A stretch of 49,776 bases of DNA from contig JASLXG010000059.1 of NCBI GenBank assembly GCA_030740435.1, forward strand, positions 1 through 49,776, in the 5' to 3' direction. Made by a program: the position numbers and the translations under genes. The first letter of the stretch is position 1. Every line of letters begins with the position of its first letter. Positions 9,468-17,880 of the stretch are shown in pieces. Source of the stretch: Alphaproteobacteria bacterium. GTDB lineage: Bacteria; Pseudomonadota; Alphaproteobacteria; UBA2966. A model generated the notes under the pieces. It searched no databases. It saw only the letters and a list, made by a program, of their open reading frames with translations, and was not told the DNA's origin.

Positions 9468-10463
9468 TCAACCGCGTTCGACGTAGCAGATCAGCTTCAC
9501 CGTATAGGCCCGGGTGGCGTCGACCACGTCCTCGGTGCGAACATCGGCGCCGCGGGGGGCGGTGTGGTAGGGCACCTGCAAGAGGTCGAGGAACTGCATT
9601 GCCGTCTGGCCCTTGATGGCGAAGTTGACGTTCTGCGGCACTTCGCCTGAGCTGAGGTATGACCGCACCCAACTGGGATCGATACCCATGCGGCGCAGGC
9701 GCTCGGCATCGGCTGCGGTGGCGGCACCGCTGACTCCGAAGAGGCGAATGCTCTTGTTGAAAGTGGACACCGTTACCGCCGCCACTTGGCCCGATTGGTC
9801 GTATACGGGACCGCCGCTGTTACCCGAATTGATCGGTGCCGAGATCTGCAACATGCGCACGTCGTTCCTCAAACCCGCGGTGCTTGCGACCACGCCGGTG
9901 ACGGCCTTGATCTGGTCGGAAAGCCGGGTCGAGAAGGGATACCCCATGGCGATGACGGACTGGCCGATGCGCGGGGTGTCGGAGGTGAAGACGGCGTAGG
10001 GCCGGTTGGCGACGGCAGCCGCTGCCGGCCGTTTGTTCTCCTGGGCCCGGGCCGCCGGCCGCCCCGAGTTGTCGCTAAGTTCCTTCGAGAGGTTGCGCCA
10101 GCCGCCCTGCTTGGCCGGGCTTTTCTGGGCCGTCTTTTGGGCCGTCTGCCGGGCTTGGCCGGCAGTGGCTGCAACGGCTCCACCCGGCAGCTCAAGCTTG
10201 AGCACCGCCAGGTCGGCGCCGGGCTCGCGGCCGACGATGGCGGCGAAGCCCTTGTAGACTTGGCTCACCACCTCGACCTTGGGGCAGGGCAGCGAGCGCC
10301 GTTCGTCGGGCTCAAAGGTCACCACGTGGTTGTTGGTGACCAGGTGGCCGTGTTCGTTGATGACGAAGCCGGTGCCGGAACTGTAGGGCTGGGGCTCCGC
10401 CATCGCCGGGCCGGCCGCCGCCGCCAGGGTCGTGGCCACGATTGTCAGGATCTCTTTGCGCAT
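9468..10463 (-). CDS. periplasmic trypsin-like serine protease (S1C/Do-like)
   Basis: A 331-residue secreted protease. The start at MRKEILTIVATTLAAAAG is preferred because a strong GGGAGAGAGG site lies just upstream and a signal peptide (about residues 1-22, ending PAMA) follows directly. The trypsin triad is visible: His46 (LVTNNHVV), Asp84 (PGADLAVLKL) and the nucleophile Ser in SGNSGGPVYD. An unusual Ala/Gln/Lys-rich insert of about 60 residues (TAGQARQTAQKTAQKSPAKQ onward) sits between the Asp and Ser parts. A C-terminal domain of about 80 residues replaces a clear PDZ. It is divergent from the envelope gene cluster that starts at 10833 and may be functionally linked to it. Confidence 0.88.
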   Translation of the reverse strand: MRKEILTIVATTLAAAAGPAMAEPQPYSSGTGFVINEHGHLVTNNHVVTFEPDERRSLPCPKVEVVSQVYKGFAAIVGREPGADLAVLKLELPGGAVAATAGQARQTAQKTAQKSPAKQGGWRNLSKELSDNSGRPAARAQENKRPAAAAVANRPYAVFTSDTPRIGQSVIAMGYPFSTRLSDQIKAVTGVVASTAGLRNDVRMLQISAPINSGNSGGPVYDQSGQVAAVTVSTFNKSIRLFGVSGAATAADAERLRRMGIDPSWVRSYLSSGEVPQNVNFAIKGQTAMQFLDLLQVPYHTAPRGADVRTEDVVDATRAYTVKLICYVERG

Positions 10464-10832
10464 TGCCTCTCTCCCGCCGCCGGCCCGGCGCGCTGCCGGG
10501 CGGCCATTGTTGAAACAATTTTCACAAACATCCACCCGCAAAACAAGGTTGGCCGATGGGTTCCCCTCTCCCTATGGAAGGTTTAGAGGGATTTTCTCAA
10601 TCAGTTGGCAGAACTGGGCGTGGCAAAGCCCTGAATGCGGCGCTAGACTGGCCCGCACAGCGCCGCTTCCAGGCCGGTTTCGCTTTCAGCACGGGGGCTA
10701 AGTGTCTGAAAAACAACGAGAAGGCAAAAAAATTTCGCCGAAGCGCCGGAAAATCGCTCTAAACCCTTCATAGGATCGGGTACGAGACGCAATTTCCTTT
10801 TGAAACTTCCCTGTCAACCGGGAGGAAGGTCG
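10464..10832. promoter_or_regulatory. 369-bp divergent regulatory region with perfect 6-bp dyad
   Basis: This spacer lies between the protease (leftward) and the envelope cluster (rightward) and must hold both promoters. A perfect inverted repeat ATTGTT-GA-AACAAT (10506-10519) lies 43 bp upstream of the protease start and could be an operator. The rightward half is A-rich (10705-10745, AAAACAACGAGAAGG and AAAAAAATTTCGCCG). A GGAGGAAGG ribosome-binding site precedes the ATG at 10833. I found no convincing gene in it. Confidence 0.4.
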
Positions 10833-11744
10833 ATGAAAAAAGTTCTGTTGATACTGGCTTCGGGCCTACTCGCCGTGGCCGCCACCGCAACCGTCCCCGC
10901 CGCCAGCCAGGCGGCGGAAAAGCCCAACATCCTGATCATGGGCGAAGACGCCGATCAGGATACCGTGCCGCGCAACAGCCGGGTCTTTCGTCGCGTGTTG
11001 GACGGGCTGGCCAACCAGCTGCACGACGAAGGCTTCGATGTTTTCGACGAAACCGCGGTTTCGCTCGATGATTTCGCCCAGGGCCGCGCCCGACGCACCG
11101 ACGCCGAGATCATTGATGTGGCCAAGTCCATCAAGCGTCCACCCATCGATGTGGCGGTGATCTTCTCGATCTACGCAAGCGCCAACGAGACCAGCTACAC
11201 CACCAAGATCAAGACCCGCATCTCGGGCCGGCTGTTGCAGGTCAAGACCGGCCAGCGGCTGGGCAACTTCGAGGTCACCTCGCCCCGCACCTGGAACGCA
11301 CCGGCCGATTGCCCGCGCGAATGCATCCTCGAGGTGGTGGGCAAGTATTCCCGTATCCTGTCCAACGACCTGGGTTCGGTATTGGCCGAGAAACTGGCCG
11401 ACTTGCTCGATTCAGGCTCCGGTACAGCCGTCGCCAGCGGGCGCAAGATCTCCGACGCCTACAGCCTGGTGTTCGAGGGCTTCACGCCCGAGGACATCAT
11501 GGACCTGGAGGAATACCTGGTGGTGTTCCGCGGCTACAAGACCCATCGCCTGGTCTATTCGGGCCGGCGCCATCATGAGATCTGGTACGAATCCAACATC
11601 ACGGCCGGCCGTTTGGACCGTAACCTGAAGAAGATGCTGGATCGGCTGGACATCTCGGGCCGGGTCTCCTTCGCCGGTAACGAATACACCGTGCAGAAGA
11701 TCACCCGGCGTAAGACCCGGGCGCTCGATCCCGACAATTGGTAG
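10833..11744 (+). CDS. secreted protein of unknown function, envelope cluster
   Basis: A 303-residue exported protein. A classic signal peptide (MKKVLLILASGLLAVAATA..., cleavage near SQAAEK, about residue 28) follows a strong GGAGGAAGG site. The mature N-terminal part (NILIMGEDADQDTVP, then a helix and VDVAVIFSIYAS... RISGRLLQVKTGQRLGNFEV) has the strand-helix rhythm of FlgO/CsgG/TolB-type periplasmic domains. This is my reading of the pattern, not a firm match. A second domain (residues about 205-295, DAYSLVFEGFTPEDIMDLEE onward) carries many aromatic and basic residues. Two cysteines (DCPREC) may form a disulfide. It leads the cluster that continues with a lipoprotein, an OmpA-domain protein and a DUF4384 protein. 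Confidence 0.8.
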   Translation: MKKVLLILASGLLAVAATATVPAASQAAEKPNILIMGEDADQDTVPRNSRVFRRVLDGLANQLHDEGFDVFDETAVSLDDFAQGRARRTDAEIIDVAKSIKRPPIDVAVIFSIYASANETSYTTKIKTRISGRLLQVKTGQRLGNFEVTSPRTWNAPADCPRECILEVVGKYSRILSNDLGSVLAEKLADLLDSGSGTAVASGRKISDAYSLVFEGFTPEDIMDLEEYLVVFRGYKTHRLVYSGRRHHEIWYESNITAGRLDRNLKKMLDRLDISGRVSFAGNEYTVQKITRRKTRALDPDNW

Positions 11745-11750
11745 GAGCGG

Positions 11751-11773
11751 GGGCCGCCGCCCGGCGGCGGCCC
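11751..11773 (+). terminator. strong GC hairpin after the secreted-protein gene
   Basis: A perfect 10-bp stem, GGGCCGCCGC (11751-11760) with GCGGCGGCCC (11764-11773) and a 3-nt loop, begins 7 nt after the stop codon of the preceding gene. There is no U-tract, so it may be a Rho-dependent or RNA-stabilising hairpin that lowers expression of the downstream lipoprotein and OmpA genes relative to the first gene. Confidence 0.5.
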
Positions 11774-11838
11774 GCCGTTGTCCACCGGCCCCCGGGGTCC
11801 CCAGGGGTTTGATATGATCGAGAGACGGAGGCGGTTCC

Positions 11839-12384
11839 ATGAAAGCCCTTAGCGCCGTTCTGCTCGCCCTCTTCATCGCCGGCTGCAACGCCACCGCCGG
11901 CACAGACATAGGCTCCGGCACCGTCACACTGCGCCAGGCCAGCGCCAGCCCCTACCAGGGCAGCGGCAGCCGCGATGCCGAATTCGCCCTGCTGGGAAAA
12001 CCCTTTTCGCTGTCGCGCCTGATCGCGGCCCGGTTCGGCAAGAACCTCGATCCCTCCGACAAGGGCGCTCTCGACGGCGCTGCCAGCGCGGCCATCGCCG
12101 GCCTGATACGCGCCGACCACGACTGGTCGACCGGCCGCACCGGCAATTCCGGCCGGGTTACGCTGGCGCGGCGTGACAACCGCGGCAGCCGGGAATGCGC
12201 GCTGCTGCACCACACCCACGTCGTCGACAAGGCCCGCATCCGCGGCAGCTTGACCGCCTGTCGCCGCCCCGCTGGTCCCTGGATCCTCGACGACGCCCGC
12301 TGGACCCGTTCGGGCGACGATTTCGCCGAGCCCAGCGGCAAGCAAAAGCCGTCCAAGGGAAAGTGGCGGCCGGTAACGGAGTAG
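11839..12384 (+). CDS. outer-membrane lipoprotein, 17-kDa surface-antigen/RT0821-like
   Basis: A 181-residue lipoprotein. The signal ends in a lipobox LFIAGC, with Cys16 the lipidated residue followed by Asn, so outer-membrane sorting is expected. The mature part fits the RT0821/Lpp0805 '17 kDa antigen' pattern: LGKPFSLSRLIAARFGKNLD, a DKGALDGAASAAIAGL helix, the W-x-x-x-R-x-G-x-S-G turn (DWSTGRTGNSGRV), then two cysteines (SRECALLH and TACRRP) before a PWIL ending. A Lys/Arg-rich tail follows. Such proteins are surface or periplasm-facing lipoproteins with a structural role. It is 4 bp upstream of the OmpA-domain gene and co-transcribed with it. Confidence 0.82.
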   Translation: MKALSAVLLALFIAGCNATAGTDIGSGTVTLRQASASPYQGSGSRDAEFALLGKPFSLSRLIAARFGKNLDPSDKGALDGAASAAIAGLIRADHDWSTGRTGNSGRVTLARRDNRGSRECALLHHTHVVDKARIRGSLTACRRPAGPWILDDARWTRSGDDFAEPSGKQKPSKGKWRPVTE

Positions 12385-12388
12385 GGCG

Positions 12389-12922
12389 GTGCGATTCGTC
12401 GTTGCCTGTCTGCTGGCCGGTCTGACGTGGGCCTTGCCGGCGGCCGCCGAAGACGGCGTGCGGGATTTGAACTCCATCATCCGTTCGCTGGCGCCGCTGG
12501 AATATCTTCCCGAACATTCCGGCAAGCCCCGCGTCGATCTCGACGTGCGCTTCCAGGTGAACTCGGCGACGCTGACCAGGCAGGCCCGGCGCCAGCTCGA
12601 CGAGCTGGGCGGGGCCTTGAAATCCGAACGCCTGGCCGGCCAGCGCTTCCGCATCGTCGGACACACCGATGCCTCCGGCGGCGCCGCCTACAACAAACGC
12701 CTCTCCCAGCAGCGTGCCAAGGCCGTCAAGGCCTACCTGGTGGCGCGCCACCGCATCGATGCCGCCAGCCTGGAAAGCATCGGCATGGGCGAGGAGCAGC
12801 TCAAGAACCCGCTCAGGCCCAAGGCCGGCCTCAACCGCCGCGTCGAGGTGCTGGCCCTGGGCTCGCCGCCCGGGACCAAAGTCAAATCGAAACGCTCGGG
12901 CGAACGGAAGATCAAGTGGTGA
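12389..12922 (+). CDS. OmpA-family peptidoglycan-binding protein
   Basis: A 177-residue protein starting at GTG with a signal peptide (MRFVVACLLAGLTWALPAAA). The OmpA C-terminal domain occupies about residues 45-155: VDLDVRFQVNSATLT, then FRIVGHTDASGGAAYNKRLS and the NRRVEVLAL ending. The peptidoglycan-contacting Asp and Arg (GHTDASG and LNRRVEV) are present. There is no beta-barrel, so it is a periplasmic wall-anchoring domain. A Lys-rich tail (GTKVKSKRSGERKIKW) ends the protein. Its stop overlaps the ATG of the DUF4384 gene (TGATG), so the two should be made together, and it follows the lipoprotein by only 4 bp. Confidence 0.9.
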   Translation: MRFVVACLLAGLTWALPAAAEDGVRDLNSIIRSLAPLEYLPEHSGKPRVDLDVRFQVNSATLTRQARRQLDELGGALKSERLAGQRFRIVGHTDASGGAAYNKRLSQQRAKAVKAYLVARHRIDAASLESIGMGEEQLKNPLRPKAGLNRRVEVLALGSPPGTKVKSKRSGERKIKW

Positions 12923-14304
12923 TGGCGCGTGCAGTGGCCGCAGCCGTCCGGCTGGTTCTCTGTGCCGCTCTGGTGTTTTCCATCGTGATCCCTGTAGCCC
13001 AGGCGGCAAATTCCGAAAATGCCGTATTCGCTGGATTGGCCGACGAACTGCTGAGCGGTCTCGGTGCCTGGCGTAAGGGCAAGGGCCGCATCCGCATCGC
13101 GCTCTGGCCCTTCGGCCCGCGCGACGACATCCCGGTAACCCCCGAAGCCGCCAACGCCTTCAATGATGCCCTGCTGGCGGCGCTGCAGGCCAAAGCGCGT
13201 AAGCATTTCGAATTCGTCGGGCGGAGCGAGCTGCGCCAAGTGATCAAGGACCTCGACGAATCGGGGGGCGTCGACGACCCGGTGGCCCTGGTCAGCGACA
13301 ACGCCGCCGCTGACGTCCTGGTCGTCGGCACCATCCGCCTCGAGGGCGGCGCGGTGAGCCTGGTCTACAAGGCCATGGGGGCGGGCCGTTCCACCGGCAC
13401 CATCATCGCTTCGACCGAAGCCCGCAAACTGCCAGCAGCGGCGGCCGGCACCGTGCTCTCACTCAAGCAGGGAGTGGCCCGGGCAGCCAAGCACTTCCGC
13501 GACCATGCCGCCGACATGCGCGAGCTCAGGCTGGCCGGCGTGCGCTTCCAGTCGAGCCGCCAACAGACCGCCTTCAGCCGCTACGTCGAGGAGCAGATCG
13601 GTGCCGTGCTCAGCCAGCACTTCGCCAGTGTGCTGAGCGAGCGCAAGCTGGTGGTCAAGCGCTACAAAAAAGGCAGCGAGAAAGGCGAGGGCGTTTACGT
13701 CCTCGAAGGCACCTATTGGGATTTCGAATCCAGCGTCGATCTCCGCCTCAAGCTGCGCAACGCGGCCGGCGAAAGCGTCGCCTGGACCGGCCACGTGCGC
13801 CCGCCCCGGGGCCTTCAATTGCGGCCCGCCGGCAACTTCCCCACCGGGCTTTTGAACAACGACGGCCTGGGCGCCCACCGCCTCGAGCTTTCCAGCCCGC
13901 GTGGGCCCGACCCCAGCTACCGCGTCGGCGACAAGCTGGTGCTCGACATCCAGACCGACCGCGAGGCCTGGCTTTATTGCTTCTACCGCCAATCCGACCG
14001 CACCTGGTTCCGCATCTTCCCCAACCGCTATCACAAAGACGCCAAGATCCCCGGCGGCCGGGCGCTGAGCATCCCCGACGAGCGCTACGCCTTCGACTTG
14101 AACGTCACCGAACCGGCCGGCATCGACCTGGTCAAATGCTTCGCCACCAACCGCGACGTCATGCGGGAGCTGCCGCGGGCCTGGCGCAGCGAGGATTTCG
14201 CGCCGCTGCCCGCCGGCCTCGATTTCAAGCTCGTAGGGACGTTCCACGCCATTGCCGAGGCCACAGTCAGCGAGGCCAGCTTGGTGGTGACGGTGGTGAA
14301 GTAG
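12922..14304 (+). CDS. secreted FlgO/CsgG-like + DUF4384 protein
   Basis: A 460-residue exported protein with a hydrophobic signal segment (about residues 8-30, LVLCAALVFSIVIPVAQAA). The N-terminal domain (RIRIALWPFGPRDD... LLAALQAKARKHFEFVGRSE... AADVLVVGTIRLEGGAVSL) matches the FlgO/CsgG/TolB-N style fold found in outer-membrane secretion and assembly proteins. The C-terminal part (about residues 330-425: YRVGDKLVLDIQTDREAWLY, then CFYRQSDRTWFRIFPN and the DLVKCFAT region) is a DUF4384 domain. DUF4384 occurs with proteases and OmpA-like modules in envelope systems of unknown function. It is coupled to the OmpA gene. An 88-bp degenerate copy of its 3' end occurs at 17791. Confidence 0.82.
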   Translation: MARAVAAAVRLVLCAALVFSIVIPVAQAANSENAVFAGLADELLSGLGAWRKGKGRIRIALWPFGPRDDIPVTPEAANAFNDALLAALQAKARKHFEFVGRSELRQVIKDLDESGGVDDPVALVSDNAAADVLVVGTIRLEGGAVSLVYKAMGAGRSTGTIIASTEARKLPAAAAGTVLSLKQGVARAAKHFRDHAADMRELRLAGVRFQSSRQQTAFSRYVEEQIGAVLSQHFASVLSERKLVVKRYKKGSEKGEGVYVLEGTYWDFESSVDLRLKLRNAAGESVAWTGHVRPPRGLQLRPAGNFPTGLLNNDGLGAHRLELSSPRGPDPSYRVGDKLVLDIQTDREAWLYCFYRQSDRTWFRIFPNRYHKDAKIPGGRALSIPDERYAFDLNVTEPAGIDLVKCFATNRDVMRELPRAWRSEDFAPLPAGLDFKLVGTFHAIAEATVSEASLVVTVVK

Positions 14305-17661: not shown

Positions 17662-17790
17662 TTCGCTGCCTCTTGTCGCTAAATAGTCGAAGAATATTCG
17701 AATAATATTGCACGCCTTCGCCCTGTCAACATCAGCGCCGCAGATCTCCCCCCCCCGCCAGGGATTTGTATGGCCCGGTCGACCACCCGC

Positions 17791-17880
17791 CGCCGGCCTC
17801 GATTTCAAGCTCGTGGGCACCTTCCGCTCCATCGCCGAGGCCACGATCAGCGAGGCGAGCTTGGTGGTGAAGTAGGGGGG
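17791..17880 (+). pseudogene. remnant of the 3' end of a DUF4384-protein gene
   Basis: About 85 bp here match the 3' end of the intact gene at 12922-14304 (its positions 14211-14310) with a 9-bp gap. In frame this reads GLDFKLVGTFRSIAEATISE and ASLVVK-stop, against GLDFKLVGTFHAIAEATVSE in the intact gene, followed in both by a G-run. Nothing upstream resembles the rest of the gene, so this is a truncated paralogue. It forms a direct repeat with the intact copy across the MFS-TetR-acyl-CoA dehydrogenase block. The remainder of 17662-18094 holds the dehydrogenase promoter (AT-rich, 17680-17712) and no other supported gene. Confidence 0.85.

Follow-up and report, generated by a model that had tools for sequence, protein, structure and literature searches.

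The locus described here raises the question of whether a block of five adjacent genes for exported proteins forms an envelope system, and what such a system might do. The block lies at 9468-14304 of contig JASLXG010000059.1 (assembly GCA_030740435.1, a marine Alphaproteobacteria bacterium), a stretch of 49,776 nt that was studied as a whole and is called the window below. It encodes a trypsin-like protease and, divergently, a secreted protein (gene sec, protein B), a lipoprotein (lipo), an OmpA-type protein (ompA, protein C) and a FlgO/DUF4384 protein (flgO, protein D). A sequence-only reading had proposed these genes as an undescribed envelope system. As a set they match no named complex in Pfam, NCBIfam, PADLOC or the literature searched, but the block supplies just the outer portion of something larger: the five genes belong to one conserved accessory system of 8 to about 17 genes, with at least 15 in its expanded form.

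Conservation of the block and of the larger system

Conservation in a same-genus genome (G009), purifying selection and a recurring sec-ompA-flgO run confirm that the five genes are real and not chance open reading frames. G009 carries all five in identical order and orientation, and the ratios of nonsynonymous to synonymous substitution (dN/dS) against it are 0.27, 0.10, 0.41, 0.13 and 0.17, with dS of 0.42-0.69. The sec-ompA-flgO run is also found in G010, G011, G173 and G362. In G010 and G011, which are family relatives, it occurs without the protease or the lipoprotein, and a series of genes designated E to P lies a few genes further on.

In the window's own genome, this series is encoded on a separate contig, C24 (L107), in the order E-F-G-H-I-caspase-J-K-O-L-N-P. 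Both halves are joined in G173, a member of another family, where a single cluster reads caspase-sec-lipo-ompA-flgO-E-F-G-H-I-J-K-O-L-M-N-P-trypsin-caspase. A compact operon of eight genes, caspase-D-G-H-I-trypsin-OmpA-sec, was found in Actibacterium sp. 188UL27-1 (L126), and on plasmid pMaq22A_2p of Methylobacterium aquaticum (L146) the order is unchanged except for an additional small gene following D, the D there being a distant homologue (hhalign E 1.7e-5). Related sets are present in the gammaproteobacteria Alteromonadaceae BrNp21-10, where the set lies near an integrase-like gene, and Aestuariibacter A3R04. A plasmid search retrieved one plasmid with B as the query and none with G. Gene boundaries in these relatives come from a simple script, and several of the loci are contigs of metagenome-assembled genomes. 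The sequence-only reading had staked its proposal on the five families recurring together and matching no named complex, and it passed this test, in that no named complex turned up in the databases and papers searched and the families do recur: the five stand together in G009, all five families share the G173 cluster (sec-lipo-ompA-flgO contiguous, trypsin further along), and four of the five are in the Actibacterium operon and, in the same order, on the Methylobacterium plasmid.

The recurring members of the system are a caspase and/or a trypsin-like protease, both with export signals, together with B, C, D, G, H and I; G and H have neither a signal nor a membrane helix. The expanded form adds a lytic (SLT) transglycosylase (F), lipoproteins (J, P and the lipoprotein of the window), the exported proteins K and O, and three further proteins: L, a membrane protein with three helices; E, which has one helix and an invariant Glu; and N, which is proline-rich and TonB-like. 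The compact form does without F, E, L and N and keeps the caspase, the trypsin and the Lon-like protein I. The block in the window is thus the outer-envelope half of the system, whereas the core of G, H and Lon-like I appears to reside in the cytoplasm or inner membrane and is encoded elsewhere in this genome. A self-contained five-gene system was rejected, because the conserved unit is larger.

Of 385 alphaproteobacterial genomes, 19 have sec and 20 have G; the two occur together in 14, where 0.99 would be expected (P 3e-17); counted by genus, the two coincide in 11 cases against 0.76 expected. In a second sample of 388 Pseudomonadota genomes, 14 gave strong matches to I and 11 to sec; nine genomes had both, compared with an expectation of 0.40 (P 2e-13). 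Both P values are overstated, since genomes are not independent and the samples have a few genomes in common. Weak matches to I (E ~1e-4) were excluded from this count; several of them fall within open frames of some 800 codons, a length that would suit Lon itself. In all eight genomes of the second sample besides the window's own, sec and I are 3.1-8.9 kb apart, and over both surveys the distance between sec and the core genes is mostly below 10 kb. Despite the overstated P values, the genus counts and this linkage leave little doubt about the association of sec with the core. Presence of the system is sporadic (about 3-5% of genomes), and this, together with the plasmid-borne and integrase-linked copies, fits an accessory system.

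These data bear directly on the simplest explanation, an ordinary neighbourhood in which unrelated exported proteins are adjacent through chance or shared recent ancestry. Domains such as DUF4384, OmpA and trypsin are widespread, and within the window's own genus the entire neighbourhood is conserved, flanks included. Nevertheless, the genes are linked in distant families and distant taxonomic orders, between different flanks, far above expectation. Barring a strong bias in the surveys, these refute the explanation, and we regard it as scarcely credible.

Gene layout and the protease

The protease gene (9468..10463, minus strand) is separated by a divergent intergenic region of 369 bp (10464..10832), arranged likewise in G009, from sec (10833..11744), lipo (11839..12384), ompA (12389..12922) and flgO (12922..14304), all on the plus strand. 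The protease starts at the ATG at 10463; the TTG at 10541 in the open reading frame list sits upstream. The ompA and flgO genes share one base (TGATG), and the IKW C-terminus of C that is tied to this overlap is retained in relatives. A script for leader sequences found hydrophobic N-termini in B, C and D and a lipobox, IAGC16, in the lipoprotein. The protease N-terminus is signal-peptide-like, yet falls under the script's hydrophobicity threshold. The earlier description of five exported products in a divergent block whose last two genes overlap is therefore confirmed, with a weaker leader for the protease by the script's measure.

The 331-amino-acid protease matches Trypsin_2 (3.3e-21), and its triad H46, D84 and S216 aligns across homologues, which places it in the trypsin fold. 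Its closest relatives in the PDB are Deg/HtrA/DegS proteases, and homologues were found in G009, G173 (39%) and L116 (29%), while the Actibacterium and Methylobacterium loci carry trypsins at the matching place. This likeness recalls envelope-stress proteolysis by DegS/HtrA, as the window protease is of HtrA type and has an export signal. However, Pfam gives Trypsin_2/Trypsin alone, with no PDZ domain, the NCBIfam model degP_htrA_DO scores 59.9 bits against a cut-off of 416.2, and no partner resembling RseA, RseP or sigmaE was recognised in the set. The sequence-only reading was right about the protease itself; the odd Ala/Gln/Lys insert that it singled out (residues ~98-152, between the catalytic Asp and Ser) is a variable low-complexity linker, divergent in G009 and shorter or absent elsewhere.

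The envelope proteins and a possible assembly machine

B (303 amino acids) has no Pfam match. Structure prediction of this product, which had been suggested beforehand, gave an AlphaFold2 model of moderate confidence (predicted local distance difference test, pLDDT, 77), with which Foldseek retrieved FlgT first (5e-6 and 1.6e-5), then CsgG (2.2e-5) and after these GNA1162, PelC and LptE. B is thus predicted to be a secreted two-domain protein with a FlgT/CsgG/PelC/LptE-type fold, and its model makes B itself a CsgG/FlgT-type protein more clearly than D. Cys160 and Cys164 are conserved in an alignment of 19 members.

Further relatives of sec were noted in two other settings. Contig C19 of G011 (L021/L022) bears a second, diverged sec copy (L021:8818-9675), on an island that also encodes a recombinase-like product and unknown proteins of large size, as well as a sec-like protein of 376 amino acids. 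In family f2 of the same order (L005-L009, L011-L016), single-domain relatives of the N-terminal half of sec, membrane-anchored and frequently duplicated, are found where the other system genes are absent.

D (460 amino acids) combines an N-terminal LpoB/CsgG-like region with a C-terminal DUF4384 domain (PF14326, 5.1e-19), the latter detected in nine of nine D members. FlgO itself (PF17680) reached only E 0.046 and 14 bits, against a Pfam cut-off of 22.6, and was matched by two of the nine members (best E 0.037). The best credible Foldseek match of the D model (pLDDT 76, again moderate) is LpoB, in the N-terminal part (8e-5, TMt 0.63). Of the proposed FlgO/CsgG-like plus DUF4384 protein, the DUF4384 half therefore stands, while the likeness to FlgO holds at the level of the predicted fold only. 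KaiC also appeared among the Foldseek matches of D and was dismissed as an artefact (prob 0.15-0.54, TM ~0.1). Two separate observations concern this gene and its domain. The 82 bp at 17790-17871, close to where an acyl-CoA dehydrogenase-like gene begins, are 89% identical to the 3' end of flgO (14210-14291), an apparent remnant of a partial duplication. In other alphaproteobacteria (L069, L070, L073, L075, L076), a different and wider association of DUF4384 with OmpA was seen, in some with caspase genes.

C (177 amino acids, GTG start) carries the OmpA wall-anchor domain that had been read from the sequence (PF00691, 4.7e-20), a peptidoglycan-binding domain; four members were aligned, and the domain is unremarkable. 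The lipoprotein (181 amino acids) had been assigned to the 17-kDa-antigen type, an assignment that is not supported: it has no Pfam or NCBIfam family, and Pfam returned only a chance match. Its Cys120 and Cys141 are invariant in six homologues, and in G173, as in clusters of the Terasakiella type, a homologue is likewise flanked by sec and ompA.

By their models, the folds of B and D are of the outer-membrane-associated ring or regulator type. Since such folds are typical of rings, the main rival to a signalling role is an outer-membrane secretion or surface-assembly machine, in which B and D would form the ring, C and F would fit it into the peptidoglycan, L, E and N would energise it, and the trypsin and caspase would process its cargo or be that cargo. 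Top fold matches of B to the ring proteins FlgT, CsgG and PelC, the OmpA anchor of C with transglycosylase F encoded next door, the TonB-like N, a natural TonB_C fusion (see below) and an RTX-like protein beside the SAT42 cluster are all consistent with it. The likeness extends to the FlgT/FlgO/FlgP flagellar rings of Vibrio, curli CsgG and PelC through the B fold, the LpoB-like domain of D and its sub-threshold FlgO match. MotY is an OmpA-domain partner, as C is here. These ring systems differ in that the present one comes with caspase, trypsin and Lon-like proteases, and no flagellar, curli (csg) or Pel genes were recognised in the neighbourhoods read, by inspection or with family hidden Markov models. 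Moreover, the set showed no recognisable conserved family of outer-membrane barrels, secretins or cargo proteins, and the constant core of G and H appears cytoplasmic. The balance is tipped from assembly to surveillance by the compact operon, in which F, E, L and N are missing but three proteases remain. Overall, we consider an assembly machine somewhat unlikely.

A possible proton-driven component

Proteins L, E and N recall Tol-Pal, ExbBD-TonB and the ZorAB proteins of Zorya, with L as a possible TolQ-like protein, E as a possible TolR-like protein, N as TonB-like and C as the OmpA anchor. A proton-driven envelope machine of the Tol-Pal/ExbBD/MotAB/Zorya kind would have L as a TolQ/MotA-like channel, E as its TolR/ExbD/MotB-like partner, N as a TolA/TonB arm and C as a Pal-like anchor, with B and D as outer components for maintenance or movement of the envelope. 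Three helices and the motif TLLGISLGI...AFMTTVVGLP are present in L, E has the motif AMTEIALALAMAFF, whose Glu, the proposed proton carrier, is invariant in 20/20 members, and N is proline-rich. The profile tests do not establish homology: hhalign places L on MotA/TolQ/ExbB in the expected register with a weak P of 0.06 (0.18 for E), MotA_ExbB (PF01618) was detected in two of nine L members with a best E of 2.1, and neither L nor E has a relevant PDB match. A match of L to neutrophil elastase in the PDB search was attributed to chance. No ZorC/D or TolB was recognised, and compact systems are without L, E and N. The likeness of L and E to TolQ/MotA and TolR/ExbD is therefore one of motifs and that of N is to TonB; with formal tests this weak, a proton-driven part is only a possibility, and we find it improbable that such a machine is what the system as a whole represents.

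Proposed proteolytic signalling

Protein I has its N-terminal domain on the cytoplasmic side, crosses the membrane with a single helix and carries two conserved Cys in its outer domain. The Ser (in G.SW) and Lys of the N-terminal domain are invariant in 27/27 members, as in the Ser-Lys dyad of Lon. Its profile best matched Lon (S16) proteases in the PDB (top E 0.0035) and the PADLOC model CARF_LON (6.6e-5), and it has no Pfam match. The caspases retain their His-Cys dyad in 8/8 members; the one on contig C24 (L107:7725-9740) is secreted and fused to SH3 and formylglycine-generating-enzyme-type (FGE-sulfatase) domains. In BrNp21-10 (L120:13078-15699), I is fused to a Ser/Thr kinase (3.8e-35) and to TonB_C (2.5e-18), and the adjacent gene product has TPR and a weak FHA match. 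The fusion and its neighbour point to signalling and, taken with the dyad and Lon matches of I and the dyads of the caspases, to signalling with proteolysis.

That the block serves an envelope system was borne out, whereas neither of the functions suggested for it, outer-membrane assembly or stress sensing, is proven. Considering the caspase, trypsin and Lon-like proteases, the natural kinase fusion and the sporadic, mobile distribution, we favour sensing, and tentatively read the genes, at a little under even chances, as a trans-envelope surveillance and response system with proteolytic output, whose membership is observed and whose signal direction, trigger and outcome we infer. B, D, C and the lipoproteins would form a sensor at the outer membrane and peptidoglycan. 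Envelope damage or attack would activate the exported trypsin or caspase, and the signal could cross via the cysteine-bearing outer domain of I, switching its cytoplasmic Lon-like domain. Cleavage of H or G by this domain might then give a protective or self-limiting response. A bolder version, which we hold to be unlikely, is whole-envelope immunity against phage or other attack, in which a FlgT/LpoB/OmpA-type sensor would trigger a cascade of outer trypsin or caspase and inner Lon-like protease, in some cases joined by a Ser/Thr kinase, and the cell would be reprogrammed or killed as a result.

Several points weigh against a surveillance system. CsgG/PelC/FlgT-type proteins are mostly found in secretion or appendage rings, which favours assembly. 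PADLOC detected no whole known defence system, only partial or generic matches (the trypsin part of RT-Protease, caspase and CARF_LON). Protein I resembles Lon with modest sequence similarity. The conserved set includes neither a regulator nor a sigma factor, and the idea of H as an anti-sigma factor, prompted by its look alone, was dropped for want of any detectable link. Finally, the halves of the system are on separate contigs in the window's genome, so the products of the block are not necessarily produced along with the core.

Relation to known systems

In the CalpL/CalpT/CalpS system, a CRISPR-associated Lon protease acts as a signalling enzyme, its free-standing Lon-like domain being coupled to a sensor part (PMC11417357). 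By analogy, its cleavage of a small partner may offer a parallel for I and H. The two differ in that I is membrane-anchored with an outer domain; no SAVED or CARF domain, CRISPR or sigma factor was found. Conflict systems with vWA-MoxR/iSTAND and VMAP components also use protease effectors, some of them with transmembrane and OmpA/PEGA domains (PMC7159879, in part), but no vWA, MoxR or STAND component was recognised in the present system, and PMC7159879 does not mention CsgG or Lon-like proteins. On the features seen, the system belongs to neither group, and we consider it new. Beyond partial matches, no entry in Pfam, NCBIfam or PADLOC covers G, H, I, J, K, O or L, and B has no Pfam or NCBIfam entry. 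No description was found in the literature, that on DUF4384 included, in a search that left most subscription journals and bioRxiv outside.

Proteins B, G, H, I, J, K, O and L travel together in alphaproteobacteria and some gammaproteobacteria, their genes lying on chromosomes, on one plasmid and on an island that bears an integrase. Cultured carriers exist in Actibacterium, Terasakiella, Aestuariibacter and Methylobacterium aquaticum, and the system can be tested in them now. If the surveillance reading is true, these bacteria would possess a proteolytic signalling route across all layers of the envelope, in which caspase, trypsin and a Lon-like protease anchored in the membrane take part. 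A function would then be suggested both for DUF4384 and for the caspases that bacteria secrete.

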